From positions 1 to 27,782 of the IMG/VR virus record IMGVR_UViG_3300025880_000074: 27,782 nucleotides of DNA. One strand, 5' to 3'. Below the pieces are notes generated by a model. That model had not been told where the DNA came from and ran no database searches. It worked only from the letters and a program-made list of their open reading frames with translations. Below are positions 1-12,371 of this stretch, one piece after another (within the stretch, counting starts at the first letter, position 1; every line of letters begins with the position of its first letter). The stretch is from a virus. A program made the position numbers and the translations under genes.

Positions 1-273
1 TATTTTCAAGATGGTTCAAATCAATTTGTACTTCAGGTAAGGCAAGGAACTAGTTTTCCAGCCAACAATGATTTTTTACTTCAATCAAGGGTTCTATCCA
101 ACAATGTCCTATTAGATCAATACACTATGGGAACAATTAATTTGAATGGCACAGAAATTCCTCTTTTAGAAAACACTGGTTTGTATATAGGCCCAAAAGA
201 TAATTTGCCAATAACTCAAGGAGACGGCACGGTTTCTGTTTCTTTTTTATATAGAATTTTAGAATTACCATAG
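1..273 (+). CDS. Phage structural protein, C-terminal fragment
   Basis: An open frame enters from the left edge in frame 1 and stops at TAG 271-273, leaving 90 residues (begins YFQDGSNQFVLQV, ends LYRILELP). The N-terminus lies outside the window. The fragment is rich in beta-branched, Asn, Gly and Leu residues, with no membrane segment and no recognisable catalytic motif. It is followed immediately by virion and fibre genes, so a virion or tail-associated role is inferred from context and composition only. The reading frame is continuous with no internal stop, and its stop codon shares a base with the next gene's possible GTG start, as is usual for cotranscribed phage genes. I do not recognise the family. 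Confidence 0.6.
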   Translation, partial: YFQDGSNQFVLQVRQGTSFPANNDFLLQSRVLSNNVLLDQYTMGTINLNGTEIPLLENTGLYIGPKDNLPITQGDGTVSVSFLYRILELP

Positions 274-563
274 TGGCAGATAAAAGTAAAATGGCTTGTA
301 ATAAGCCAATGCGTTCAGACAGAGCTGGAAAAAAGAAAATGGTTAAAGGTTGTGAAAGTGGAAAGGAAAAACTTATACATTTTGGCGCAAAAGGATATGG
401 ACACAATTATAGTGTTGCTGCTAGAAAATCTTTTAAAGCTAGACATAAATGCGGAACTGCAAAATCGAAGTTGACAGCTCGATACTGGGCCTGTAAAAAT
501 TTATGGGCTGGAAAAGGCGGCAGCACTAAGTCCTCTCCAAAAAATAAAAAAGGGAAATATTAG
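273..563 (+). CDS. Small basic phage protein (GAKGYGHNYS motif)
   Basis: This 96-residue, strongly basic protein is full of Lys, Ser and Gly. It carries the segment FGAKGYGHNYS (about residues 37-47) followed by ARKSFKARHKCG and KLTARYWACKNLW, with four cysteines in all. Similar small Lys-rich proteins with a GAKGY segment and an ARHKC...ARYW pattern occur among marine phage genes near virion or fibre genes, but I know of no assigned function. The start is uncertain. A GTG at 273 overlaps the previous stop by one base, while an ATG at 291 would give a protein six residues shorter. Nucleic-acid or virion binding is possible from charge alone, but that is a guess. Confidence 0.7.
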   Translation: MADKSKMACNKPMRSDRAGKKKMVKGCESGKEKLIHFGAKGYGHNYSVAARKSFKARHKCGTAKSKLTARYWACKNLWAGKGGSTKSSPKNKKGKY

Positions 564-589
564 CTTAAAAAATATACTCAAATAATTAT

Positions 590-597
590 TATCTTTG
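590..597 (+). promoter_or_regulatory. Bacteroidota-type -7 promoter box (TATCTTTG)
   Basis: TATCTTTG matches the TAnnTTTG -7 consensus of Bacteroidota housekeeping sigma factors and lies 24 nt before the ATG at 622, in a short A/T-rich gap. No clear TTG -33 element is visible at the expected distance, so the promoter call rests on the -7 box, its position, and the recurrence of the same box elsewhere in the window. Confidence 0.5.
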
Positions 598-621
598 AAT
601 TAAATATATCATTAAAGTATT

Positions 622-819
622 ATGAAAAAACAAGGTTATAACTCAAGGTTAGATGAATCTTTAGGATCAAAAAATGGAAAAAAATCTCAATCATTAAAAT
701 CAAGAAGAGATGAAAGCAAAGCAATGTCTAAAAAAGATTATGGTCATGCTTATGGTGGAGATCATTCTATGAAGTATGAAAAACATTTAGGAAATAATTC
801 TAAAATTTTTAAAAAATAA
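622..819 (+). CDS. Small lysine-rich hypothetical protein
   Basis: The 65-residue product is basic and hydrophilic, with many Lys, Ser, Gly and Asp, and a central segment KKDYGHAYGGDHSMKYEKHL. That segment loosely resembles the KGYGHNYS stretch in the gene before it. There is no membrane helix, signal peptide or known catalytic motif. It begins with ATG after an A/T-rich leader and a TATCTTTG box at 590, and its TAA overlaps the ATG of the next tiny gene. I do not recognise the family. A small virion-associated or DNA-binding protein would fit its composition and location, but nothing in the sequence proves it. Confidence 0.6.
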   Translation: MKKQGYNSRLDESLGSKNGKKSQSLKSRRDESKAMSKKDYGHAYGGDHSMKYEKHLGNNSKIFKK

Positions 820-917
820 TGAATAAATTAATTTGTATTTGGAATCAATGTATTTCTAAACTTTTAATTGATTTAAAAAAGTGTTCTAAAAAAGAATGCA
901 AGTGTAATAAAAAGTAA
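819..917 (+). CDS. Tiny Cys-rich basic ORF (32 aa)
   Basis: An ATG at 819-821 overlaps the TAA of the previous gene (taATG) and opens a 32-codon frame ending at TAA 915-917. The product is MNKLICIWNQC, then a hydrophobic stretch, then a Lys-rich tail CSKKECKCNKK. It has five cysteines (residues 6, 11, 22, 27, 29), three of them in the basic tail. The stop/start overlap and the otherwise empty 110-base gap favour a real gene. Its shortness means chance cannot be excluded. A metal-binding or membrane-associated microprotein is possible. Confidence 0.4.
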   Translation: MNKLICIWNQCISKLLIDLKKCSKKECKCNKK

Positions 918-929
918 AACAATAAAATT

Positions 930-2786
930 ATGGCAATAATTCCAGATGAATGTAAGTTTCATGTAGTATCAGAAAATGTCAATACAGTAGACAAAGGGTC
1001 AAAGTTGGCTCAATCAAAAAGAGAATCAATAACAATGGCTGACATTAAGCAGTCAATTCCTACACCTGAAGGAATATTTGAAAGGGGTTCAGGTGATTTT
1101 AGTATAAAACCAGTTACTAACCCTGCGTATTCTACTTATAACAATGTTGTAACTGCAAATCAAGGAAGTGTATTAGGGGGTTTAAATAATAGAATATATA
1201 ATACAGAACCTTCTGGAAGTCAAGGTTCTTATTATTGTGTTGGAGATGTTATTGCTGGTGGGTACGGTAATTATGTATATTCAAAAGGAACTAGACAAAC
1301 TCAAAATTTTATAGGTGGGGGTAATTTTAACTACATTTTATATAATGGAGAGAGTAATCGATATGGTGAATATTATACAGCCACCAATGTTGTTGGAGGT
1401 GGAAGTAGCAATGCAGTTTATGGGTATGTAAAAAGTGCCAGTATTTTAGGAGGTGATTTTAATAACATAAGTACTCGAGGTGGTAGAGCAGGGGGTGGTG
1501 CTAACCGAGGCTTTATTGGAGGAGGATTAGGTAATAAAATTTGTGCGAGAACTAATGGTGATCATTATTCTACTGGAGCTTGCGGTGTTATCTCTGGAGG
1601 TGCAAGAAACTGTATAACTAGTCTTAATTGCGCACAATCTTCTAACTCTACTATTAGTGGTGGTACTTATAATTGTGTTCAAGCTATTGGGGGTGTTGTA
1701 GTTGGAGAAATAGGATGCACATTAGGGTCTGTTGTTTCTGGTGGAAAGTTAAATAAAATAATCTCTGAATGTGAAATTGCTAATTATAATGCTATTGGGG
1801 GTGGTACAGAAAATCAAATTAATAGCGCATATGGCTCTACTATTAGTGGAGGTGGTTCTAATGTGATTTGTGGAAGTGCCACGTGTAACTCTACTATTGG
1901 TGGTGGTTATTATAATGAGATTTATGGAGCTTACTCACCTAACACTACTATTAGTGGAGGTTATTGTAATAAGATTTATGGAGATTGCGCATATGGCTCT
2001 ACTATTAGTGGAGGTTTTTGTCAGGTTCTTCTTTCCTGCATAGGTACTATTGGAGGAGGTGCATATAATTTGGTTAGTAACAAAAACGCTTACGTTACAA
2101 TAGCAGGAGGATGTGCTAATAAAATATGCGGAGAATATAACCGTGGAGTTTTTATTGGTGGTGGAGTTTCTAATAATGTAAATGGATATGAGGCTAGTTA
2201 CACTACTATTGCAGGTGGTTATCAGAATACTATTATTGCGCCTTATGTTGTAGGAGGCGATTCTGGATATGCTCCTTATAATACTATTTCTGGTGGTAGA
2301 TACAATCAAATAACTACAACTTTAAATGGATTTTCTAAATCAGGTGTTATTGCAGGAGGAGAATGTAATTCCATTAGTGGTAATTTATCATATTATTCTA
2401 CAATTTCAGGTGGTTACAATAACTCTATAAGTGGTAGTTATGCACCAAGAAATATAATTGTTGGAGGTCAAAATAATAGTATTGACAATGGTAATACTTC
2501 AGTAATTGGAGGTGGTAGAAACAATCAAATTAATAATGCATATTGGTCTGGAATTATGTCAGGTCAGTGTAATGTTATTAATGGTGGTTATCATCAAACA
2601 ATTTTAGGGGGTGTTAGTAACACTAACGGTAGCTACTGTTCTCATGTTATAGGAAGTAATATTACTACCGACAGGGTTTGTACTACCTTTGTAAACAATT
2701 TATCAATTAAAAGTATTCCAACGGCAGCAGCAGGATTGCCAGCAGGTTCAGTATGGAACAACGCAGGAGTTTTAAATATAGTATAA
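930..2786 (+). CDS. Repeat-rich fibre-like protein (GG-x-x-N beta-helix)
   Basis: A 618-residue protein whose body, from about residue 85 to 580, is a long series of short units of the type STISGGYxNxIxGxY, as in STISGGYNNSISGSY. The spaced Gly-Gly, Asn and beta-branched residues are the pattern of left-handed beta-roll or beta-helix stalks, such as YadA-like heads and phage fibre or spike shafts. The N-terminus (residues 1-60) contains SKRESITMADIKQSI, resembling N-terminal attachment segments of other Bacteroidota phage tail proteins. The C-terminus SIPTAAAGLPAGSVWNNAG matches a short end motif common in marine viral structural proteins. There is no signal peptide. I infer a trimeric tail fibre or host-contact protein. 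It is followed 10 nt later by a small coiled-coil gene. The exact receptor role cannot be read. Confidence 0.7.
   Translation: MAIIPDECKFHVVSENVNTVDKGSKLAQSKRESITMADIKQSIPTPEGIFERGSGDFSIKPVTNPAYSTYNNVVTANQGSVLGGLNNRIYNTEPSGSQGSYYCVGDVIAGGYGNYVYSKGTRQTQNFIGGGNFNYILYNGESNRYGEYYTATNVVGGGSSNAVYGYVKSASILGGDFNNISTRGGRAGGGANRGFIGGGLGNKICARTNGDHYSTGACGVISGGARNCITSLNCAQSSNSTISGGTYNCVQAIGGVVVGEIGCTLGSVVSGGKLNKIISECEIANYNAIGGGTENQINSAYGSTISGGGSNVICGSATCNSTIGGGYYNEIYGAYSPNTTISGGYCNKIYGDCAYGSTISGGFCQVLLSCIGTIGGGAYNLVSNKNAYVTIAGGCANKICGEYNRGVFIGGGVSNNVNGYEASYTTIAGGYQNTIIAPYVVGGDSGYAPYNTISGGRYNQITTTLNGFSKSGVIAGGECNSISGNLSYYSTISGGYNNSISGSYAPRNIIVGGQNNSIDNGNTSVIGGGRNNQINNAYWSGIMSGQCNVINGGYHQTILGGVSNTNGSYCSHVIGSNITTDRVCTTFVNNLSIKSIPTAAAGLPAGSVWNNAGVLNIV
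1825..2015. repeat. 29-bp perfect direct repeat inside the fibre gene
   Basis: The 29 bases at 1825-1853 recur exactly at 1987-2015. The offset is 162 bases, an in-frame 54 codons. Both copies encode the same stretch ending in STISGG. They are the most conserved part of a longer degenerate repeat array spanning roughly 1180-2660. Because the spacing is in frame, recombination between the copies would shorten or lengthen the protein by whole repeats. Confidence 0.75.
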
Positions 2787-2796
2787 AAATAAAAAA

Positions 2797-2964
2797 ATGA
2801 AAGATTTAAAAACAATAGAAGAAAAGTTTGCTAAAAAAATAGAAAAACTTGAAGAAAGAAAAGCCAAACAATTATCAAAACAAAAAGATAGAGAGGCAAA
2901 AAAAGAATTAGTTCAATCACTTAAAGAAGAAGCTAAAAAAGAAGCTAAAGCTAAAAAATCTTAG
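2797..2964 (+). CDS. Small charged coiled-coil protein
   Basis: An ATG at 2797 opens a 55-residue frame ending at TAG 2962-2964. The product begins MKDLKTIEEKFAKKIEKLEE and is almost entirely Lys, Glu, Ala and Leu, which predicts one continuous charged helix or coiled coil. It starts 10 nt after the fibre gene's stop, so the two are probably co-translated. The absence of Pro, Gly and Cys and the uniform helical composition make it look like a genuine small protein rather than random sequence. It could be a fibre chaperone, a linker or an internal protein. I do not recognise a named family. Confidence 0.6.
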   Translation: MKDLKTIEEKFAKKIEKLEERKAKQLSKQKDREAKKELVQSLKEEAKKEAKAKKS

Positions 2965-2973
2965 GAATATAGA

Positions 2974-3001
2974 TTGCATATTATATTATTTACTATATTT
3001 G
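2974..3001 (+). promoter_or_regulatory. Predicted promoter for the sulfation operon
   Basis: TTG at 2974-2976 and TATATTTG at 2994-3001 are separated by 17 nt, matching the Bacteroidota -33 TTG / -7 TAnnTTTG arrangement. The -7 box is preceded by TAC, giving TACTATATTTG, a form shared with the boxes at 5717 and 14833. The ATG of the sulfotransferase is 28 nt downstream, after an A/T-rich leader. This is the best-matched complete promoter in the window. Confidence 0.65.
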
Positions 3002-3029
3002 TGTGAAATCAAATTTAATTTAATGTAAT

Positions 3030-3848
3030 ATGCAAGAAATATTTTATAATTCTTCCTTGCCTAGAAGTGGCTCTACACTTCTTCAAAACATTTTAGCACA
3101 AAATCCTGAATTTTATTGTTCACCCACTAGTGGAGTTTCTCAACTAATATCTGCTTGTATAAGACAATTTAATCATGGTGATGCTTGGAAAGCTCAAGGT
3201 CATAACGAAATGACTCCGCACTTTCTCTCTTTTTGCAAGGGAGGTATTTTTACTTATTACTCATCATTAACTAAAAAAAGGTATATCGTAGACAAGTCTA
3301 GGGAATGGACTCAGCAGTATGCTTTACTAAAAAAACTTGACCCTAATCTAAAGGTTGTTTGCATGGTCAGAGACCTTCGTTCAGTTTTTGCTTCCTTAGA
3401 AAAAAAGGTTAGACAAAATCCTGAAAGAGAAAATTGGGTTACAAATGTAGGGGAGCTTAAAGGTTTAACTGTAGAATCTAGAGTACAGCAATGGTCTAGA
3501 GTTGTTCCATTAGGGCCTCCAATAAACTTTTTAATGAATGCTATTGAAACAGGCTATGCGGAAAATATTCTTTTTATAAAATACGAAGAATTTGTTAAGA
3601 ATCCTGAAAAGGAAATTAAAAAAGTTTACAAGTATTTTGGTGCAGATTTTTACCCAGAACATAATTTTAAAAATATAACTCAACTAACTCACGAGAACGA
3701 TACTATATTTGGAATATATGGGGATCATCAGTTAAGGGGTGAGTTAAAAGCTTTACCTGAAGATTATGAAAAAATTTTAGGTAAAACTGTTTCTAATAAT
3801 ATTAAAATTTCATACAAGTGGTTTTATGATTACTTCAAATATAAATAG
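3030..3848 (+). CDS. Sulfotransferase family protein
   Basis: This 272-residue protein would move a sulfuryl group from PAPS to an acceptor hydroxyl or amine, probably a glycan, in the host cytoplasm or at its membrane. The N-terminal PRSGSTLL (residues 11-18) is the 5'-phosphosulfate-binding loop of the family. VRDLRSVFAS (about 113-122) fits the 3'-phosphate-binding segment, with R114 and S118 in the expected places. The length suits the bacterial Sulfotransfer_3-type group. There is no signal peptide. It heads a tight operon: the APS kinase ATG follows its stop by only 3 nt, so PAPS supply and use appear linked. The acceptor cannot be inferred from the sequence. It could be host surface polysaccharide or a virion glycan. 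Confidence 0.85.
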   Translation: MQEIFYNSSLPRSGSTLLQNILAQNPEFYCSPTSGVSQLISACIRQFNHGDAWKAQGHNEMTPHFLSFCKGGIFTYYSSLTKKRYIVDKSREWTQQYALLKKLDPNLKVVCMVRDLRSVFASLEKKVRQNPERENWVTNVGELKGLTVESRVQQWSRVVPLGPPINFLMNAIETGYAENILFIKYEEFVKNPEKEIKKVYKYFGADFYPEHNFKNITQLTHENDTIFGIYGDHQLRGELKALPEDYEKILGKTVSNNIKISYKWFYDYFKYK

Positions 3849-3851
3849 GAT

Positions 3852-4280
3852 ATGATATATTGGTTTACAGGGCAGCCTGCTCACGGAAAAACAATTTTAG
3901 CTAATATGTTAAAAGAAAAATTACCTAACGCTTTTAGGATTGATGGAGACGAAATGCGAGAGCTTTTTACAAACAAGGATTATTCTATTAACGGAAGAGT
4001 AGTTAATGTCGGTACGGCTCAGAAAATAGCTCATTATCTAAACAATCAGGGTCACGATGTTATTGTTTCCTTGGTTTCTCCATATATTGACCAAAGGGAA
4101 GATTTTAAAACTTTGATGGGTGACGACATAATTGAGTTTTATGTTCACACATCTGAGCCAAGGGAAAGAGACCACTTCAAAGCAATAGCCTATGTTGCTC
4201 CTTCTAAAAACTTTATTGATATAGATACTACTTACGATACTTCTGAACAGTCATTTAAAAAAATTATAGATGAAATATAA
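3852..4280 (+). CDS. cysC: Short APS-kinase-like protein (adenylylsulfate kinase)
   Basis: A 142-residue P-loop protein resembling adenylylsulfate kinase, which phosphorylates APS with ATP to give PAPS. Visible motifs are the Walker A GQPAHGKT (residues 7-14), RIDGDEMREL (29-38, matching the LDGDxxR segment), SLVSPYIDQRED (ISPxxxxR-like) and ERDHFKA (the xERDxKG-like segment). It is shorter than cellular CysC (about 200 residues). The usual RxENxRR substrate segment is replaced by GRVVNVGTAQKIA, so activity on APS is likely but not certain. It sits between the sulfotransferase (3 nt gap) and the nucleotidyltransferase (11 nt overlap), strongly suggesting a PAPS-producing role. A related small-molecule kinase is the alternative. 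Confidence 0.75.
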   Translation: MIYWFTGQPAHGKTILANMLKEKLPNAFRIDGDEMRELFTNKDYSINGRVVNVGTAQKIAHYLNNQGHDVIVSLVSPYIDQREDFKTLMGDDIIEFYVHTSEPRERDHFKAIAYVAPSKNFIDIDTTYDTSEQSFKKIIDEI

Positions 4281-4668
4281 AGCTCAAGCAGAAACAGAAA
4301 GTTCAAGCACGAAAAAAAAGTATTCTATGTTTGTTGGAAGATGGCAGCCTTTACATAAAGGTCATCTTTGGTTAATTAATCAAAGACTTAAGGAAGGAAA
4401 AAATGTATGGCTTGCAATTAGAGACGTTAAGCCAGATAAAAAAAATCCTTGGACTGCTGAACAAATTGAAGAAATGATTCACGAAGGAGAACTTAAAGAA
4501 TTAATTGTTGAAGGTAAAGTTATTGTTTCTATCATTCCAGATATTGAATCTATTAACTATGGTAGAGGGGTTGGATATGATGTTATAGAACACATACCTC
4601 CAGCTAAAATAGGAGAAATTTCAGCAACGTCTATTAGAAATCAAATGAAGAAAGATGGTAAGTTATAA
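4270..4668 (+). CDS. HxGH-type nucleotidyltransferase
   Basis: A 132-residue member of the cytidylyltransferase-like superfamily. FVGRWQPLHKGH (residues 21-32) contains the signature HxGH nucleotide-binding motif, and ISATSIRNQMKK near the C-terminus is the ISxTxIR phosphate-binding motif. The middle carries IPDIESINYGRGVGYDV, a stretch I recall as conserved in marine phage homologues. The overall pattern resembles NadM-type NMN adenylyltransferases. The GRDH motif of Sat-type ATP sulfurylase is absent. Flanking APS kinase and sulfotransferase genes suggest that it may adenylylate sulfate or a sugar or cofactor for the same pathway, but the substrate is unknown. The ATG at 4270 overlaps the previous gene by 11 nt. 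An internal ATG at 4327, just before the motif, is an alternative start. Confidence 0.75.
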   Translation: MKYKAQAETESSSTKKKYSMFVGRWQPLHKGHLWLINQRLKEGKNVWLAIRDVKPDKKNPWTAEQIEEMIHEGELKELIVEGKVIVSIIPDIESINYGRGVGYDVIEHIPPAKIGEISATSIRNQMKKDGKL

Positions 4669-4858
4669 AAGACATTTTGCAAAAACATTAAGTTGGAGAA
4701 TTATTGGGACTATAGATACAATGCTGTTGTCATCTGTTATAACTGGTAGCTGGGAAATGGGATTAACAATAGGAGGTGTAGAAGTTGTTACAAAAATGGT
4801 GTTATATTTTTTACACGAAAGAATCTGGTACAAATACTTTAAATACGGAATAAAATGA
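4655..4858 (+). CDS. DUF2061 family small membrane protein
   Basis: The 67-residue product matches the DUF2061 pattern: a basic N-terminus with KTLSWRIIGTIDTMLLSS, a second hydrophobic segment after a Gly-Thr-Ile-Gly-Gly stretch, and a C-terminal HERIWYKYFKYG. Two short transmembrane helices are predicted by eye, roughly residues 18-34 and 38-56. DUF2061 genes are known to occur beside, or fused to, sulfate-activation enzymes in bacteria, which agrees with its place here after the APS kinase and nucleotidyltransferase. Its biochemical role is not established. It overlaps the preceding gene by 14 nt and the following one by 4 nt (ATGA), so it is firmly part of the operon. Confidence 0.8.
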   Translation: MVSYKRHFAKTLSWRIIGTIDTMLLSSVITGSWEMGLTIGGVEVVTKMVLYFLHERIWYKYFKYGIK

Positions 4859-5730
4859 ATATAATTTTTAAAATTGATGGAGGCTTAGGTAAGTCTATTA
4901 TGGGAACTGCTATAATAAAAGTTATTAAGAAAAAATATCCTAAATCAAAAATAATAGTTTTAACTCATTACAAGGATGTTTTTTTAAACAACCCTGATGT
5001 ATACAAATGTCTTAAATTAAACGAGACATTTGAAATTTACAAGAATCACATTAAAGATAAAGACTGTAAAGTTTTTATAGCCAACCCATATGGTACAAGT
5101 GACTTTATTCTAAATCAAAATCATTTATATACAATTTGGTGTAATATGTTTGGTCTTGAATACAATGGAGAGATGCCTGAAATTTATTTAACAAATACAG
5201 AAAAAAATTACTACTTTAATGTTTATCATTCAAACAAGCCAATATTTGCATTGCAGACGCATGGGGGTGGTCAGAACCAAGAACTAAAATACAACTGGTC
5301 AAGGGATATGCCATTTCCTTTAGTCCAGGATGTTATTAATAGGTTTAAAGATGAGTATACTATTTGTCATATTAAAGGAAAGTCTCAACCATCATATAAT
5401 CACACTAAGGAATGCACAGAGTCTTACAGGGGTGTGGCTATCTTGCTTCTTCATTCTAAAAAAAGATTATTTATAGATAGTTTTTCACAACATATGGCTG
5501 CCGCTTTAAGATTACCATCAGTAGTTTGTTGGGTTAATACAAATCCTGAAATGTATGGGTATGAAATTCATAAAAATATTTTGGCAAATAAATTTATTAA
5601 AACACCTGAATATAGTCATAGTGAATTGCAACCTTTTTCTTTATATGAGGATATTAAAACAATACCTTACAATAATTTAAATGAAATTTTTGACTCAGAA
5701 ACTGTTATAAAAAATATACTATCTTTGTAA
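4855..5730 (+). CDS. GT9-like glycosyltransferase
   Basis: A 291-residue GT-B-type protein resembling the heptosyltransferase family GT9, which transfers a nucleotide-activated sugar to a growing glycan. The N-terminus IDGGLGKSIMGTAIIKVI followed by KKYPKSKIIVLTH is the family's first Rossmann motif. LFIDSFSQHMAAALRLPSVV (about residues 202-221) matches the nucleotide-sugar-binding 'DSxxxHxAaAlxxP' motif near the C-terminus. There is no signal peptide or membrane helix, so it should act in the cytoplasm. It is translationally coupled (ATGA) to DUF2061 in the sulfation operon, which suggests that the glycan it builds may also be the sulfotransferase's acceptor. Sugar donor and acceptor are unknown. 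Confidence 0.7.
   Translation: MNIIFKIDGGLGKSIMGTAIIKVIKKKYPKSKIIVLTHYKDVFLNNPDVYKCLKLNETFEIYKNHIKDKDCKVFIANPYGTSDFILNQNHLYTIWCNMFGLEYNGEMPEIYLTNTEKNYYFNVYHSNKPIFALQTHGGGQNQELKYNWSRDMPFPLVQDVINRFKDEYTICHIKGKSQPSYNHTKECTESYRGVAILLLHSKKRLFIDSFSQHMAAALRLPSVVCWVNTNPEMYGYEIHKNILANKFIKTPEYSHSELQPFSLYEDIKTIPYNNLNEIFDSETVIKNILSL
5717..5727 (+). promoter_or_regulatory. Promoter -7 box (TACTATCTTTG)
   Basis: TATCTTTG at 5720-5727 matches the Bacteroidota -7 consensus and is preceded by TAC as in two other boxes of this window. It abuts the stop codon of the glycosyltransferase gene and lies 17 nt upstream of the small gene at 5745. No TTG occurs at standard spacing; the nearest is 27 nt upstream. Confidence 0.45.
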
Positions 5731-5744
5731 GAAGAGAAATCTAT

Positions 5745-5912
5745 ATGGGAATTGTAAAAAAGTCAACAGGGTTAGGCGATAGTGTTGAGAAAGTAGCTAA
5801 ATTTATAGGTGCTGATAAACTGTCAAAAACTTATGAAAAAATTACAGGAAAGCCATGTGGATGCTCAAAAAGAAAAAATACTTTAAATAGAGTTTTTCCA
5901 TATAAAAAATAA
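5745..5912 (+). CDS. Small phage protein with CGC...LN..FPY motif
   Basis: An ATG at 5745 opens a 55-residue frame ending at TAA 5910-5912. The product begins MGIVKKSTGLGDSVEKVAKF and ends KPCGCSKRKNTLNRVFPYKK. The layout GLGDxVEKV...CGCxxRKxxLNxxFPY is one I recognise from small proteins repeatedly found near virion genes of Bacteroidota phages. No function is known to me. The paired cysteines in CGC followed by basic residues could bind metal. It has its own upstream -7 box and precedes the next gene by 5 nt. Confidence 0.7.
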   Translation: MGIVKKSTGLGDSVEKVAKFIGADKLSKTYEKITGKPCGCSKRKNTLNRVFPYKK

Positions 5913-5917
5913 TAAAA

Positions 5918-6184
5918 ATGGCATATCAAAAATTACAAACAAGTAGAGGGGCAGCAGTTACACCAAGTGACACTTTAAATATTCCAAGTGTATCTACTCA
6001 AAACGGTAGAGGCAACAATGGTTGTGTATTATATGTAGCCACAGGAGGTGATTTAAAGGTACTAACCTCAGGAGGCGATGAAGTTAGTTTTGCAGGATTC
6101 CCAGATGGATCTTTTTTACCAGTTAACGTAGTAAGAGTTTTTGCAACAGGAACTTCAGCAACAGGAATTATAGCACTTTGGTAG
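5918..6184 (+). CDS. Small virion-type structural protein
   Basis: An 88-residue protein beginning MAYQKLQTSRGAAVTPSDT and dominated by Gly, Val, Ser, Thr and Asn, with beta-strand-prone stretches such as VNVVRVFATGTSATGIIAL. The opening is similar to that of small structural or decoration proteins in marine phages, which often sit next to fibre genes. There is no signal peptide, membrane helix or catalytic motif. Its stop is separated by 1 nt from the ATG of the BspA-type repeat protein, so the two are almost certainly made together. A role as an adaptor or decoration subunit for that protein is an inference from this coupling. Confidence 0.55.
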   Translation: MAYQKLQTSRGAAVTPSDTLNIPSVSTQNGRGNNGCVLYVATGGDLKVLTSGGDEVSFAGFPDGSFLPVNVVRVFATGTSATGIIALW

Positions 6185-6185
6185 T

Positions 6186-7655
6186 ATGTTTATATCTATC
6201 GCAAATGCAATAGGGTCATCTTCATCTTCAGGTAAAGGAGGGGCTGAAACTAACGACCCTTTAACTGACGCAACCTTTCAGCAAGCAGTAAACGATATAT
6301 TAGCTCAAGACCCTGTAAGTGGGGATTATAACCTTGTACCCTATGGTAAGCTTCCAAATTGGGATGTAAGCCAAGTTACAAATATGCAATCGGCATTTAA
6401 TGGTAAAACTACATTTAATGGAGATATAAGTGCTTGGGATGTTTCTAGTGTAACTAATTTTAGTGTTATGTTTCAAAATGCAAGAGTCTTTAATCAAGAT
6501 TTAAGTAGTTGGAACACCTCTAGTGCTACTAGTATGATTTCTATGTTTTTAAATGCTTTTATTTTTAATAGCGATATAAGTTCTTGGGATGTTAGTAATG
6601 TTACTAATTTTAGTAATATGTTTTTTAATAGTAGAGATTTTAATCAACCGATAGGTAATTGGAATGTTAGTAGTGCAACTAATACGGCTAATATGTTTGG
6701 TGGTGCTAGTGATTTTAATCAACCCTTAAATAATTGGAATGTTAGTAATGTTACTTTAATGAATACAATGTTTCAAAACACCAGTTCATTTAATCAAGAT
6801 TTAAGTTCTTGGAATGTGAGTAATGTTACTAATATGAATCAGATGTTTAAAAGTGCTGCAGCTTTTGAACAAGATTTAAGTTCTTGGGATGTTTCTAGTG
6901 TACAGGATATGTACAGAATGTTTGCTTTTGTTTATACAGCAGCTAAAACTTACAATATATCAAATTGGAATACAAGTAGTGTTACTACAATGAGAGAAAT
7001 GTTTAGAAACAATAAATTTAATGAAAATATCAACTCTTGGGATGTTTCAAATGTAACTGATATGAAAGGGATGTTTCAAAGCGCAACTTTATTTAATCAG
7101 CCTTTAAATAACTGGAATGTTAGTAACGTTACTAGTATGGCAGCTATGTTTCAAGGAGCGTCTGTTTTTAATGGCGATATAAGTGCTTGGGATGTTTCTA
7201 GTTGTGTAAACTTTAGTAATATGCTTCAAAACATGAACGCATTCAATCAACCATTAAATAGTTGGAACATGACTAGAGCGTCAGGTATTGTTCAGGTAGG
7301 TTATATGTTTGCAAATTCTGTTTTTAATCAGCCTTTAAATAATTGGGATACAAGTAAATTTAATGCTTTCCTTGGTATGTTTGCTAGTGGCGCTTCATTT
7401 GACCAAGACATATCTTCTTGGGATACAACAGGATTTACAACAACAGCAGCAGGTAATGATTTCTTTACAACTTCAGGATTGTCAACTGCTAATTATGATG
7501 CATTGCTTATTGGTTGGTCAGCACAGGCAGTTATACCTTCAACAAACTTTAATTTTGGTACTGCTCAATACACACTAGGTGGAGCAGCAGAGGCAGCTAG
7601 AAACACATTAATCAATACTTATGGTTGGACGATAACAGATGGTGGTGGAATATAA
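6186..7655 (+). CDS. BspA-type leucine-rich-repeat protein (DUF285)
   Basis: A 489-residue protein made of about fifteen roughly 25-residue units of the form FNQDLSSWDVSNVTNMxxMF. This is the BspA/DUF285 (PF03382) repeat known from bacterial and mycoplasma surface proteins, where it mediates adhesion. Units start at residue 59 (WDVSQVT) and run to about residue 417. The C-terminal block GLSTANYDALLIGWSAQ ... YGWTITDGG matches the usual BspA-family end domain. The N-terminus has no convincing signal peptide, unlike bacterial BspA proteins, which fits a virion protein rather than a secreted one. It lies between other fibre genes and the lysis cassette. I infer a receptor-binding or tail-fibre role. 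Confidence 0.8.
   Translation: MFISIANAIGSSSSSGKGGAETNDPLTDATFQQAVNDILAQDPVSGDYNLVPYGKLPNWDVSQVTNMQSAFNGKTTFNGDISAWDVSSVTNFSVMFQNARVFNQDLSSWNTSSATSMISMFLNAFIFNSDISSWDVSNVTNFSNMFFNSRDFNQPIGNWNVSSATNTANMFGGASDFNQPLNNWNVSNVTLMNTMFQNTSSFNQDLSSWNVSNVTNMNQMFKSAAAFEQDLSSWDVSSVQDMYRMFAFVYTAAKTYNISNWNTSSVTTMREMFRNNKFNENINSWDVSNVTDMKGMFQSATLFNQPLNNWNVSNVTSMAAMFQGASVFNGDISAWDVSSCVNFSNMLQNMNAFNQPLNSWNMTRASGIVQVGYMFANSVFNQPLNNWDTSKFNAFLGMFASGASFDQDISSWDTTGFTTTAAGNDFFTTSGLSTANYDALLIGWSAQAVIPSTNFNFGTAQYTLGGAAEAARNTLINTYGWTITDGGGI
6360..7437. repeat. BspA-type leucine-rich repeat array (~75 nt units)
   Basis: In-frame units of about 75 nt begin at the TGG codon at 6360, each encoding W-[DN]-[VT]-S-x-[VA]-T...MF...FN. 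I count fifteen W-starting units to about 7437. Stretches such as AATTGGAATGTTAGTAATG recur nearly exactly, for example near 6728 and 7110, whereas other units have drifted. This implies both old and recent duplication. Confidence 0.75.
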
Positions 7656-7665
7656 ATAAATAAAA

Positions 7666-7821
7666 ATGGAACAAACTGATTTAAAAATATACTTATTTAA
7701 TACAATAGCTTTTTTTACCTCTTTTGCAAATGTAGAAATGTGGTTACAAATAATTTTATTAATAACTACTATTATATATACAATTCAAAGAATAATAAAA
7801 AATGATAAAAAAGATAAGTAA
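7666..7821 (+). CDS. Small membrane protein, candidate holin
   Basis: An ATG at 7666, 10 nt after the previous stop, opens a 51-residue frame ending at TAA 7819-7821. The product starts MEQTDLKIYLFNTIAFFTSF. It has a hydrophobic segment (about residues 9-22), an Asn-Val-Glu-Met-Trp turn, a second hydrophobic segment LQIILLITTIIYTI (27-40) and a charged tail RIIKNDKKDK. Short two-segment proteins of this kind directly upstream of endolysins in Bacteroidota phages are usually holin-like. It overlaps the M15 peptidase gene by 20 nt, which is strong contextual support for a lysis role. Another membrane accessory function is possible. Confidence 0.6.
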   Translation: MEQTDLKIYLFNTIAFFTSFANVEMWLQIILLITTIIYTIQRIIKNDKKDK

Positions 7822-8290
7822 ACACATATCAGAGAAAGAGGCTACAAAATCTATTACCGCATTAAGACTAGGCATAGCTAACACACCAAATGGTACAGCG
7901 CTAGCTAACATGAAAATTCTTGCCGAAAAAATATTTGAGCCACTTAGAAAATGGGTTGATGGTCCAATAAAGATTAATTCTTTTTATAGATCAGAGGCAC
8001 TTAATAAAGCTATTGGTGGTGCATCTAAAAATGGTAAACAAACAAGCCAGCATTGTTATGGTCAAGCTATGGATATAGATGATATATATGGTCATAAAAC
8101 AAACAAAGAAATGTTTAATTTTATAAAAGAAAAATTAGACTTCGATCAACTCATCTACGAATTTGGAAACGAAGAAAACCCAGATTGGGTTCATGTATCG
8201 TATGTTAACAAAGATGATAACAGGAACAGGATATTAAAAGCTGTAAGAGATAAAGGAAAAACAATATATATAGATATAACAAATGGGTAA
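7802..8290 (+). CDS. M15-family peptidase, phage endolysin
   Basis: A 162-residue peptidase M15-type protein, a zinc L,D- or D,D-peptidase that cuts peptidoglycan cross-links or stem peptides at the end of infection. SQHCYGQAMDID (residues 82-93) supplies zinc ligands H84 and D91. The NPDWVHVSY segment supplies the third ligand H131, and the preceding IYEFG segment (about 118-122) probably holds the catalytic acid. SFYRSEALNKAIGG (60-73) is the conserved core strand region. The length is that of small phage M15 endolysins. No signal peptide is visible, so release depends on a holin. The gene overlaps the small membrane protein upstream and precedes a second membrane gene pair. Confidence 0.88.
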   Translation: MIKKISKHISEKEATKSITALRLGIANTPNGTALANMKILAEKIFEPLRKWVDGPIKINSFYRSEALNKAIGGASKNGKQTSQHCYGQAMDIDDIYGHKTNKEMFNFIKEKLDFDQLIYEFGNEENPDWVHVSYVNKDDNRNRILKAVRDKGKTIYIDITNG

Positions 8291-8323
8291 TAAAAGTGTA
8301 GAAAAAAAATCAGTTTACATAAT

Positions 8324-8623
8324 ATGTCAGAGCCGTTAAAAGAAACTTCGCAAATTCAGTTAGACATAAAAACATTAATAGGAATAGTTTTTGGAATAGT
8401 GTCTATTGCAGGCATATGGTTTAATCTTACGGCTGAAATTGCAAAACTTGATAGAGACGTTTCTAGATTACAATACAATCAAACATTAAATGATGAGTTT
8501 AGAATAAAATGGCCAAGAGGTGAGATGGGGGCTTTGCCTGACGATGCTAAACAAGATTTAAGAATTGAGTATATGGAAAAAGAACTAGAAGAAATATATG
8601 TAATATTAAAAGAATTAAAATGA
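8324..8623 (+). CDS. Single-TM coiled-coil lysis accessory protein
   Basis: A 99-residue protein with one hydrophobic helix, TLIGIVFGIVSIAGIWF (about residues 17-33). This is followed by a heptad-like helical region (ETAEIAKLDRD-like, about 36-55), a polar linker around WPRGEMGALPDD, and a second acidic helix ending MEKELEEIYVILKELK. An inner-membrane helix plus periplasmic coiled coil is the architecture of i-spanin-like or holin-accessory proteins. It overlaps the GTA-type holin gene by 4 nt and follows the endolysin. No outer-membrane lipoprotein partner is visible nearby, so the spanin assignment is tentative. Confidence 0.5.
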   Translation: MSEPLKETSQIQLDIKTLIGIVFGIVSIAGIWFNLTAEIAKLDRDVSRLQYNQTLNDEFRIKWPRGEMGALPDDAKQDLRIEYMEKELEEIYVILKELK

Positions 8624-9018
8624 AAAATATTTTAGCAAAACTATTTGGAGGTGTTGGTGCGGATATTGCAGGAAAAATATCTGGCATCATAGATAAACAT
8701 ACTTTTTCAAAAGAAGAGCGTGCAAAGTTAAAACAAGAAATGGATAAGGTCTTTATTGATGCAGAGGCTGATATGCAAAAAAATGTTACAGAAAGGTGGA
8801 AGGTAGATTTGCAACATGGAAACTGGTTAACTAAATCAGTACGCCCACTTACCCTTATATTTTTAGTTGTTTCTACTGTTATAATGGTTTTTATAGATAG
8901 TGGATTTATTGCTTTTGAAGTTGAAGAAAAATGGACAGAGCTTTTACAGCTTGTTTTAATAACAGTGATTGGAGCTTATTTCGGAGGAAGGTCGATTGAA
9001 AAAGTAAAAAAAAGATAA
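8620..9018 (+). CDS. GTA-type 3TM holin-like membrane protein
   Basis: A 132-residue protein whose N-terminal 75 residues are amphipathic or helical and charged. Two clear hydrophobic helices follow, after NWLTKSVRPL: TLIFLVVSTVIMVFI (about residues 78-92) and ELLQLVLITVIGAYF (about 107-121), ending in GGRSIEKVKK. The combination of W-L-x-K-x-V-R-P-L before the first helix and AYFGGRS(I/L)EK at the end is the signature of the GTA holin family. It would permeabilise the inner membrane so that the M15 endolysin reaches peptidoglycan. It closes the lysis cassette, after which a new promoter box occurs. With the 51-residue protein upstream there are two holin candidates. Confidence 0.75.
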   Translation: MKNILAKLFGGVGADIAGKISGIIDKHTFSKEERAKLKQEMDKVFIDAEADMQKNVTERWKVDLQHGNWLTKSVRPLTLIFLVVSTVIMVFIDSGFIAFEVEEKWTELLQLVLITVIGAYFGGRSIEKVKKR

Positions 9019-9051
9019 AAAACTTTACAAAAAATTCTCTTAAAAATAAAT

Positions 9052-9059
9052 TATATTTG
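9052..9059 (+). promoter_or_regulatory. Promoter -7 box (TATATTTG) before packaging genes
   Basis: TATATTTG fits the Bacteroidota -7 consensus and lies 19 nt before the ATG at 9079. A weak TTTAC at 9024-9028, about 23 nt upstream, may stand in for the -33 element. The leader (AAATTAAATTTAATTAAATG) is of the repeated A/T type seen at other gene-group starts here. Confidence 0.5.
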
Positions 9060-9078
9060 TTAAATTAAATTTAATTAA

Positions 9079-9312
9079 ATGAATGATATAAGAAAAATAT
9101 CAATTGGACAAGATTATAAAAACAATGCAATGCATTATATTGTTAATCAAGAGGTATTAAATGGTCACTACACAATTTATTTAATTAAAAAAATTCAATC
9201 TACTGATTCTATAAAAATATACATAGAAAATAAAGAAAATGAAATTTTTCTTTGGAAAGAATTTAATAATAATATGCCTGTTTCAATTGAATATAATTTA
9301 TTTTTTAAATGA
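9079..9312 (+). CDS. Conserved small phage protein upstream of terminase
   Basis: A 77-residue protein beginning MNDIRKISIGQDYKNNAMHY and ending with WKEFNNNMPVSIEYNLFF. The pattern of IGxDYKxxAMHYxVxQ near the start and WKEFNxxMPxSIEYN near the end is one I recognise from small proteins in the early packaging region of Bacteroidota phages, without known function. It is mostly predicted beta-strand, with no membrane helix. The ATGA overlap with the next gene (9309) means that it is probably translated with the GroES-like protein. Its job cannot be stated. Confidence 0.7.
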   Translation: MNDIRKISIGQDYKNNAMHYIVNQEVLNGHYTIYLIKKIQSTDSIKIYIENKENEIFLWKEFNNNMPVSIEYNLFFK

Positions 9313-9872
9313 AATCACCTTTTTATTTTATAGTAAAACCCAAAAATGGGGCAAGATATGATAGTATAAAAAAAATAGGAGATGTTAATTTTATAACTAG
9401 CACTTCAAAAGAAGATTTTAAATCTTCAAATAGATATGCTAAAGTTGTTGAAACTCCAATTAATTATACAGGACCTATTGAAATAGGAGATACACTTTTA
9501 GTGCATCATAATGTTTTTAAATATTATAACGATATAAAAGGAAAAGAAAGAAGTGGTAAAAGCTTTTTTAAAGATGATTTGTTTTTTATTGATAATGATC
9601 AATTTTTTATGTACAAAAAAAATAATAAATGGAAAGCTCATTCTAAATATTGTATGGTAAAACCTATTGAAAAACAAAATTATTATATTAAAACAAATCA
9701 AAATGAAGAACCTTTAAAAGGTATAATTAAATATCCAAATGAATATTTAATTAAAAAAGGCGTAAAAAAAGGAGATTTAATTTCTTTTAAACCTGATAGT
9801 GAATATGAATTTAATGTAGATGGAGAAAAACTTTACAGAATGTTTGATAAACATATAACTTTAGTATTATGA
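9309..9872 (+). CDS. GroES/gp31-like protein with two fused halves
   Basis: A 187-residue beta-rich protein that looks like a tandem pair of GroES folds. The first half (residues 5-104) runs FIVKP...RYAKVVETP...IEIGDTLLVHHNVFKYYN...DDLFFIDNDQFFMYK. The second (113-187) runs CMVKP...LKGIIKYPN...VKKGDLISF...YEFNVDGEKLYRM...ITLVL. Both follow the co-chaperonin order: start strand with VKP, then GxV, then GDxV, then a final 'seILAVi'-like strand. Phage co-chaperonins such as T4 gp31 pair with host GroEL to fold the capsid protein, which fits its place in the head-gene region. No mobile-loop motif is obvious, so GroEL binding is unproven. It overlaps both neighbours by 4 nt. Confidence 0.5.
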   Translation: MKSPFYFIVKPKNGARYDSIKKIGDVNFITSTSKEDFKSSNRYAKVVETPINYTGPIEIGDTLLVHHNVFKYYNDIKGKERSGKSFFKDDLFFIDNDQFFMYKKNNKWKAHSKYCMVKPIEKQNYYIKTNQNEEPLKGIIKYPNEYLIKKGVKKGDLISFKPDSEYEFNVDGEKLYRMFDKHITLVL

Positions 9873-10147
9873 ATGTAAATCAAATAAAATTAGATATTAT
9901 TGTAGCTGGTGAAAAAGCAGTCAAACAATTAATTAAAGTTGCTGAAGAACAAATAATTAAATATGGTGAAGACGATGAGCTTGCAGCAGATAAATTAAAA
10001 AATGCAGCAGCAACAAAAAAATTAGCAATATTTGATGCCTTTGAAATATTGACAAGAATAGAGTTAGAAAAAAATTTAATTGAAGGTAATGATTCCACAA
10101 CAGTAAAAAAATCAGTAGAAGGATTTGCAGAAAGAAGATCAAAATAG
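9869..10147 (+). CDS. Helical protein, candidate small terminase
   Basis: A 92-residue, almost wholly helical protein with many Ala, Glu, Lys and Ile (for example KAVKQLIKVAEEQIIKYG and a central Ala-rich stretch). It lies immediately before the large terminase, overlapping its likely TTG start by 23 nt, and no other candidate for a small terminase subunit is visible in the window. Small terminases are short helical DNA-recognition proteins in exactly this position, so the call rests on position and composition. There is no clear helix-turn-helix motif that I can point to. An unrelated conserved small protein is the alternative. Confidence 0.45.
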   Translation: MNVNQIKLDIIVAGEKAVKQLIKVAEEQIIKYGEDDELAADKLKNAAATKKLAIFDAFEILTRIELEKNLIEGNDSTTVKKSVEGFAERRSK

Positions 10148-12371
10148 TTTATGCAAAAGTTTAAAAAACTTTGTGCCAAAAACAGTCATAACAAATAAGA
10201 ACAAGGCTAGGTCTTGGAAATATGGATATGATGCTAAATATGATTTTGTTGTTATTTCTAAAAATGGTGAAATTGAAGATATTATAGAAATAGAAGGTTT
10301 AAAGATTGCGCTACCTAAGCCGCCAAAAGAAATTTATTCAAGAAATAAAAACATTAAAGAACAGTATTGGGAATCTTTTCAGTATCCTAAAAAATTACAA
10401 AAAATACAATCTATATTTCAATGGCACGCTACTCCTTCAAATTTCAAAAATGAATGGGTAGATTATATTGAAGAAGAATTTGACAGAAGAGATGAAGGTT
10501 TTTGGTTTATGAATAATGGTGTTCCTACATATATAACTGGATCTCATTATATGTATCTTCAATGGACAAAAATTGATGTTGGTTTACCAGATTACAGAGA
10601 TGCAAATAGAGTTTTCTACTTACATTGGGAAGCTTGTAAAGCAGATAAAAGATGTTTTGGTCAAGATTATTTAAAAATAAGACGATCAGGATTTTCATAT
10701 ATGGCAAGTGAAGAGTCTGCCAATATTGGAACTATTAGCAAAGATGCGAGATTGGGTATATTATCTAAAACAGGAGCAGATGCCAAAAAAATGTTTACAG
10801 ACAAAGTTGTTCCTATAGTTAGGAATTATCCTTTTTTCTTTAAACCTGTTCAAGATGGTATGGATAAACCAAAAACAGAATTAGCATTTAGAGTTCCTGC
10901 TTCAAAAATTACTAAAAAAAATATGTATATAGAAGAAGAAGATCTTGTTGAAGGATTAGATACTTCTATTGACTGGAGAAACACAGGAGACAATAGTTAT
11001 GATGGAGAAAAATTAAAACTTCTTGTACATGATGAATCTAAAAAATGGGAAAAACCTAATAATATTTTAAATAACTGGAGAGTTACAAAAACTTGTTTAC
11101 GTTTAGGAAGTAAAGTTATTGGGAAATGCATGATGGGTTCTACAGCAAATGCTTTAGAAAAAGGAGGGGAAAATGGAAAAAAATTATTTTATGATTCAAA
11201 AGTTGAAAAAAGAAATGCAAATGGTCAAACTAAAAGCGGACTATATTCACTTTTCATCCCAATGGAATATAACATGGAAGGGTTTATAGATATCTATGGA
11301 ATGCCTGTTTTAAGAACACCAACCAAACCAATATTAGGTATAGACAACGAAATGATTACTCAAGGAGCAATAGATTATTGGGAGGCAGAAGTAGATAGTT
11401 TAAAAAATGATGCCGATGCTTTAAATGAATTTTATCGTCAATTTCCTAGAACTGAGTCTCATGCATTCAGAGATGAAAGTAAACAATCCTTATTTAATTT
11501 AACAAAAATATATCAACAAATAGATTATAATGATTCTTTGATTAAGGATAGATTTATAACTCGTGGTTCATTTTCTTGGAAAAATGGAATAAAAGATACT
11601 GAGGTTGTTTTTTCTCCAAATAATTCAGGAAGGTTTTATGTTTCTTGGACACCTAATAAAACCTTGCAAAATAAAAAATATTCAAAAAACGGAATTTATT
11701 ATCCTGGTAATGAACACATGGGATCTTTTGGATGTGATAGTTATGATATTTCAGGAACTGTTGGTGGAGGTGGCTCAAACGGAGCTTTACATGGAATGAC
11801 CAAATACCATATGGATGAAGGGCCTGTAAACGAGTTTTTTTTAGAATATGTAGCTAGACCTCAAACAGCTGAGATATTTTTTGAAGATGTGCTTATGGCT
11901 TGTGTTTTTTATGGGATGCCTATTCTTATAGAAAACAATAAACCAAGATTATTGTATTATTTTAAAAATAGAGGATATAGAGGCTATTCTATGAATAGAC
12001 CTGATCGTTCATTTAATAAACTTTCTAAAAGCGAAAAAGAATTAGGAGGTATTCCAAATTCAAGCGAAGATATTAAACAAGCTCATGCGGCCGCAATAGA
12101 ATCTTATATAGAAAAATATGTTGGGTTAGATTTATTAGGCACTTTTAGGGAGATTGATTTAATGGGAACAATGTATTTTACAAGAACATTGGAGGATTGG
12201 GCTAGATTTAATATAAACAATAGAACTAAATTTGATGCATCAATAAGTTCAGGTTTAGCTATAATGGCAAATCAAAAATCATTATATCATCCCGTTAAAA
12301 AAAAATCAAAAATAAAACTTAACTTTGCTAAATATGATAATAAGGGGAGTTATAGCCAAATCTTAAGATAA
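10125..12371 (+). CDS. terL: Terminase large subunit (TerL)
   Basis: A 748-residue DNA-packaging motor: an N-terminal ATPase drives DNA into the prohead and a C-terminal RNase H-like nuclease cuts it. The Walker A equivalent is the deviant RRSGFSYMASE (residues 187-197), without the usual GK(S/T). Walker B is KLLVHDES (298-305) with D303 and E304, and a coupling motif GSTAN follows (338-342). GCDSYDISG (537-545) begins the nuclease, with D538 and D541 as metal-ligand candidates. No in-frame ATG lies near the N-terminus. TTG at 10125 gives a 23-nt overlap with the upstream gene, and GTG at 10173 is a shorter alternative. The portal ATG directly follows the stop. Confidence 0.85.
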   Translation: MQKEDQNSLCKSLKNFVPKTVITNKNKARSWKYGYDAKYDFVVISKNGEIEDIIEIEGLKIALPKPPKEIYSRNKNIKEQYWESFQYPKKLQKIQSIFQWHATPSNFKNEWVDYIEEEFDRRDEGFWFMNNGVPTYITGSHYMYLQWTKIDVGLPDYRDANRVFYLHWEACKADKRCFGQDYLKIRRSGFSYMASEESANIGTISKDARLGILSKTGADAKKMFTDKVVPIVRNYPFFFKPVQDGMDKPKTELAFRVPASKITKKNMYIEEEDLVEGLDTSIDWRNTGDNSYDGEKLKLLVHDESKKWEKPNNILNNWRVTKTCLRLGSKVIGKCMMGSTANALEKGGENGKKLFYDSKVEKRNANGQTKSGLYSLFIPMEYNMEGFIDIYGMPVLRTPTKPILGIDNEMITQGAIDYWEAEVDSLKNDADALNEFYRQFPRTESHAFRDESKQSLFNLTKIYQQIDYNDSLIKDRFITRGSFSWKNGIKDTEVVFSPNNSGRFYVSWTPNKTLQNKKYSKNGIYYPGNEHMGSFGCDSYDISGTVGGGGSNGALHGMTKYHMDEGPVNEFFLEYVARPQTAEIFFEDVLMACVFYGMPILIENNKPRLLYYFKNRGYRGYSMNRPDRSFNKLSKSEKELGGIPNSSEDIKQAHAAAIESYIEKYVGLDLLGTFREIDLMGTMYFTRTLEDWARFNINNRTKFDASISSGLAIMANQKSLYHPVKKKSKIKLNFAKYDNKGSYSQILR

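Follow-up and report, generated by a model that had tools for sequence, protein, structure and literature searches.

A probable sulfate activation and transfer operon in a marine phage, centred on an APS-kinase-like protein, a small HxGH nucleotidyltransferase and DUF2061

The window, that is the whole stretch of DNA analysed here, comprises 27,782 bases and is a virus contig from IMG/VR. Its structural genes are of the podovirus type and have kin in MW202828 and in Flavobacterium and Cellulophaga phages. The five tightly packed genes described in the initial annotation were all recovered as open reading frames on the plus strand (Table 1). They encode, in order, a sulfotransferase (ST), an APS-kinase-like protein (KIN), an HxGH nucleotidyltransferase (NT), a DUF2061 protein and a glycosyltransferase (GT), successive frames being spaced by +3, -11, -14 and -4 bases; the Pfam matches of the first four are all above cut-offs. 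The operon does lie, as annotated, between two fibre-type genes. Short ORFs, rich in lysine and some 55 codons long, flank it on both sides (window positions 2798-2965 and 5744-5912); they are smaller than the size limit of the ORF list. None of the five genes is present in the 42 kb read of MW202828, the nearest complete relative found (terminase 73% identical), which indicates that the cassette is accessory.

Table 1. Position and family assignment of the operon genes and neighbouring features in the window
Feature	Position	Strand	Matches and remarks
Repetitive fibre-like protein	930..2786	+	directly upstream of the operon; possible acceptor or host-contact protein
Bacteroidota-type promoter-like match, TTG-N17-TATATTTG	2974..3001	+	ahead of the operon
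PAPS-dependent sulfotransferase (ST), 272 aa	3030..3848	+	PF13469 9.5e-21; PF00685 7.3e-16
APS-kinase-like protein (KIN), 142 aa	3852..4280	+	PF01583 APS_kinase 5.8e-16
HxGH nucleotidyltransferase (NT), 132 aa	4270..4668	+	PF01467 CTP_transf_like 1.6e-6; proposed APS-forming adenylyltransferase
DUF2061 small membrane-type protein, 67 aa	4655..4858	+	PF09834 1.4e-22
GT9-like glycosyltransferase (GT), 291 aa, weak assignment	4855..5730	+	heptosyltransferase III 2.4e-4; PHROG 8954 1.5e-5
Short tail-fibre-like gene	5918-6184		PHROG 12296 1.3e-12
DUF285-repeat gene, fibre-like position	6186-7655		3.4e-138; protein mostly DUF285 repeats

The statement that the best-matched promoter precedes the operon held only in part. 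The best sigma-70 match within bases 1-12000 (2980-3007) lies on the minus strand and faces away from the operon; matches of this kind are not enriched (65 observed against 65.3 in shuffles). The Bacteroidota-type match is on the proper strand, but its pattern is no commoner in the window than in shuffles (3 plus-strand matches against 2.3 expected), so that it is suggestive only.

Viral contigs were gathered separately with NT, KIN and DUF2061 and, together with other loci, were placed into 111 groups by shared sequence; one of these, the MW202828 region, contains none of the genes, leaving about 110 independent viral contigs. Linkage was counted at loci flanked by 3 kb or more of sequence in both directions, for partners within 3 kb and on one strand. 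KIN and NT were both found at 39 of the 42 loci retrieved with DUF2061, and the whole KIN-NT-DUF2061 trio at 37 of 41 retrieved with NT and 49 of 53 retrieved with KIN: NT accompanies KIN at all 53 KIN loci, and KIN accompanies NT at 40 of the 41 NT loci. The trio is found in most of the roughly 110 contigs, most commonly in this order. ST and GT, each present in 23 of them (about a fifth), are only optional partners, and the conserved unit is thus sulfate activation: the core of the operon is the trio, not the sulfotransferase and the glycosyltransferase. Conserved linkage, which the initial annotation proposed as a check, is therefore strong for three of the five genes. Among 50 large viral records, only 14-17 have a Sulfotransfer_3 protein; Pfam families tallied among the viral neighbours include glycosyltransferases, oxygenases and a few other sulfotransferases, with no one recurring acceptor pathway.

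KIN is assigned to the APS-kinase family by profile, predicted fold, P-loop lysine, LDGD motif and two putative phosphosulfate-binding arginines. It scores 59.3 bits on PF01583 (cut-off 21.1) and falls below the stricter apsK model TIGR00455 (56.4 versus 138.7). Its AlphaFold model (pLDDT 92) matches APS-kinase structures or domains in all 50 PDB matches listed. K13, D31-G32-D33, R36 and R49 are invariant in an alignment of 25 relatives and correspond to Lys456, LDGD, Arg483 and Arg497 in CysC of M. tuberculosis. For that enzyme, arginines that bind phosphosulfate and further residues in contact with APS have been described (PMC4373884), and KIN retains their equivalents; the position of CysC Phe492 is occupied by Tyr or Phe. 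In the same enzyme, a lid carrying Phe576 (the FTG phenylalanine) and Lys562 closes on APS (PMC4373884). The segment of about 16 residues bearing both is missing from KIN and its close viral relatives in the alignment, and present in L208 and in the bacterial APS-kinase partners of NT.

The HxGH protein, left without a role in the initial annotation, turns out to be the most interesting part of the operon, being probably the missing ATP-sulfurylase step. Its motifs, GRWQPLHKGH and ISATSIR, are of the NadM type (GRFQPxHxGH, ISxTxIR), with a score of 26.8 bits versus 181.2 on the NadM equivalog TIGR01527. Both in sequence and in the nearest folds of its model, which is of moderate confidence only (pLDDT 75.5), NT is closest to NadM NMN adenylyltransferases rather than to ATP sulfurylases, several of which appear further down among the fold matches, none with E < 0.001. 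The Sat family PF01747 is absent from its Pfam matches; five viral ORFs of 130-133 aa, at least two of them at NT coordinates, score 14-17 bits on this profile, against a cut-off of 24.3. PHROGs and NCBIfam give no specific function for NT.

NT relatives are found in Marinimicrobia, Bacteroidota, Omnitrophota, Dadabacteria, Nitrospirota, Patescibacteria, SAR11 and archaea. The partner is often a full-length APS kinase with GLSGAGKT, LDGD, FSxxDRxENIRR and FTGI motifs. Nomurabacteria and Omnitrophota have fusions of the two in which either may come first, and in haloarchaea and marine Bacteroidota NT is fused or adjacent to the kinase. On haloarchaeal plasmids the fusion is annotated cysC and has a sulfotransferase gene just upstream; the small ORFs between the two show no DUF2061 match.

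Sulfate activation normally begins with ATP sulfurylase, which comes in two textbook kinds, Sat and CysDN, and genomic distribution suggests that NT may take their place. In 119 Flavobacteriales genomes, each searched for NT, CysD and APS kinase, the latter was above cut-off in 53. CysD is present in 50 of these, none of which has a close NT; the only three without CysD (G014, G024 and G136) coincide with the three in which NT is present (E ~1e-50), its gene lying no more than about 0.5 kb from that of the APS kinase, and no Sat was found when looked for in them. Fisher's test gives p = 4.3e-5 for this exclusion, a figure that ignores relatedness and genome incompleteness and rests on three related draft genomes. 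More generally, 22 of 38 NT-bearing genomes contain a canonical APS kinase; neither Sat nor CysD is seen in at least 12 of these 22. In four other genomes NT coexists with a bifunctional Sat-APS kinase fusion, so replacement by NT is not universal. The 50 large viral records yielded no Sat above cut-off and no CysD.

The window DUF2061 protein scores 80.3 bits on PF09834 (cut-off 23.1). In Flavobacteriales, DUF2061 genes adjoin CysC-CysD-CysN in about 8 of 20 regions, judged by gene order and size, and CysH-CysD-CysN in others; family assignments were checked on L346 and L349 for the former arrangement, and on L334 for the latter. CysQ is also present in the L346 region. The association of DUF2061 with bacterial sulfate activation, given as established in the initial annotation, is thus real and directly visible in its neighbours.

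The identification of ST as a sulfotransferase was also borne out. It matches PF13469 (Sulfotransfer_3) with 75.5 bits against a cut-off of 27, and the PAPS motifs SLPRxGST and cMvRDl..xxaS, conserved in 21 viral relatives, retain both the 5'-phosphosulfate (PRxGST) and the 3'-phosphate (RD...S) loops. For GT, neither a Pfam GT9 profile nor a curated family was matched, and its description as GT9-like is left with the weak similarities in Table 1. Relatives of the upstream fibre gene are found in 7 of 23 ST-positive viral loci and in none of 87 ST-negative ones (p = 7.7e-6, relatedness ignored); in several cases they immediately precede ST or are separated from it by one gene. This favours a fibre or a surface as the target of sulfation.

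In our reading, the operon probably activates sulfate and then attaches it to a sugar or a fibre. The explanation we prefer, and consider reasonably probable, is a self-contained module in which NT, KIN and ST act in turn, on a glycan or fibre. NT would join sulfate to the AMP of ATP to give APS, a step suggested only by fusion, linkage and CysD displacement; KIN, in view of its family, fold and active-site residues, would phosphorylate APS at the 3' position to give PAPS; and ST would use PAPS to sulfate its acceptor, probably a glycan that is made with the adjacent GT or sits on the neighbouring fibre. DUF2061 may support sulfate activation at the membrane. As accessory cargo, the cassette might alter the surface of the infected cell or decorate the virion. 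The wider proposal, that NT proteins of about 130 residues constitute an NMNAT-like class of their own among ATP sulfurylases, common to viruses, bacteria and archaea, which feeds APS kinase directly and gives phages PAPS autonomy without Sat or CysDN, seems to us slightly more plausible than its opposite. Trio linkage, DUF2061 context and ST motifs all support the sulfate activation and transfer originally suggested for this phage. Against the preferred explanation stand the missing lid of KIN, the NMNAT-like character of NT, a SAR11 pair with a divergent kinase and no sulfotransferase among the neighbours scanned, the co-occurring Sat-APS kinase fusions, the small proportion of large viral records with a Sulfotransfer_3 protein and the dependence of the CysD exclusion on three related draft genomes.

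Some of these points would also fit a different chemistry. NT and KIN might make another 3'-phosphorylated or CDP-type activated donor, the ST-like protein transferring another group or acting independently; a precedent exists in Campylobacter, whose O-methyl phosphoramidate pathway includes an APS-kinase homologue with a CDP compound as its substrate. NT belongs to the cytidylyltransferase-like/NMNAT superfamily and matches no ATP-sulfurylase profile above cut-off, which agrees with such a donor, as do the loss of the APS lid in KIN, the many cassettes missing a recognised sulfotransferase and the polysaccharide genes among bacterial neighbours. We nevertheless judge it unlikely: NT is paired, in several phyla, with full-length canonical APS kinases having the FTGI lid, occupies CysD's place in Flavobacteriales and has ATP-using enzymes as its nearest folds, while DUF2061 is tied to CysD/CysN and ST keeps both PAPS motifs.

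The genes could instead be ordinary cysC-type auxiliary metabolic genes, KIN using host APS and boosting assimilatory sulfate reduction or sulfation, with an unrelated role for NT. APS could indeed come from the host, and phages bearing cysC are known and interpreted in this way in PMC10914622; however, the near inseparability of NT and KIN in viruses and the NT-APS kinase fusions elsewhere argue that the two act in sequence, and we hold this account to be quite improbable. NadR-like NAD salvage, with KIN as a nucleoside kinase and NT as an NMN adenylyltransferase, perhaps directed against an NAD-depleting defence, would explain why NT is closest to NadM in both sequence and fold, and why a NADAR gene lies beside a fused pair in Stenotrophomonas phage Bhz60. 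It appears highly improbable, as KIN folds like an APS kinase and conserves the phosphosulfate arginines, and the pair keeps company with APS kinase, sulfotransferase and DUF2061 rather than with NAD genes.

The preferred sulfate module resembles several known systems. Bifunctional ATP sulfurylase-APS kinases (PAPS synthases, such as Aquifex 2gks and human PAPSS) likewise join an HxGH adenylyltransferase to an APS kinase, producing PAPS, but NT is a protein of about 130 aa, NMNAT-like and devoid of the PF01747 ATP-sulfurylase family. Bacterial CysC-CysD-CysN operons with DUF2061 and CysQ share with the cassette an APS kinase, DUF2061, an adenylyltransferase and sometimes a phosphatase; NT stands in the cassette for CysD/CysN and, in other viruses, a HAD protein possibly for CysQ. 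Cyanophage sulfotransferases (S-SCSM1, S-SRM01, S-SKS1) are relatives of ST with 26-32% identity, the S-SRM01 copy lying beside glycan genes; KIN and NT were not found in the examined flanks of the S-SCSM1 and S-SRM01 genes. Phage-borne APS kinase is already known as cysC, treated as part of assimilatory sulfate reduction in PMC10914622, whose consulted passages describe no NT, DUF2061 or sulfotransferase cassette. Searches of the open-access literature turned up neither the trio nor the proposed replacement enzyme, and nothing relevant on a link of DUF2061 to sulfate metabolism, on sulfotransferases of phages or on an ATP sulfurylase resembling NMNAT. If the proposal is correct, a third, small ATP sulfurylase fills the gap in genomes that have APS kinase and no recognised ATP sulfurylase, many ocean phages produce the universal sulfate donor themselves, and phage "cysC" genes read as sulfate assimilation may serve surface or virion sulfation.

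Several families recur around the pair. A 114-aa HAD phosphatase family, not present in the window, is found in 41 viral contigs (e.g. L086:6429-6770), typically between KIN and NT; weakly similar to polynucleotide 3'-phosphatases, it is a candidate PAP phosphatase and may clear this by-product in the many related cassettes that carry it. A QueC-like family lies near the trio in 13 viral contigs (L113:4507-5319 and 12 others), which suggests 7-deazaguanine chemistry in some trio-bearing viruses. The fused KIN-NT proteins of Stenotrophomonas phages (L295:3084-3824 and L296:3090-3821), including the NADAR-adjoining pair of Bhz60, are annotated "kinase" or hypothetical. In SAR11 genomes (L257-L294) a KIN-NT pair is widespread, with a divergent kinase in which LNAD replaces LDGD; it adjoins Rieske oxygenase, M24 peptidase and enoyl-CoA hydratase genes, with no sulfotransferase among the scanned neighbours. 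NT occurs without an adjacent kinase in Nitrospirota (L225, L226 and L229, which also carry a Sat-APS kinase fusion) and in Dadabacteria (L238-L250). In marine Bacteroidota a second, TagD-like HxGH protein (L242:7567-7962) is encoded between a canonical cysC and NT, near a SAM synthetase gene, and Leu/Phe-tRNA transferase genes are recurrent among the tallied bacterial neighbours of NT.
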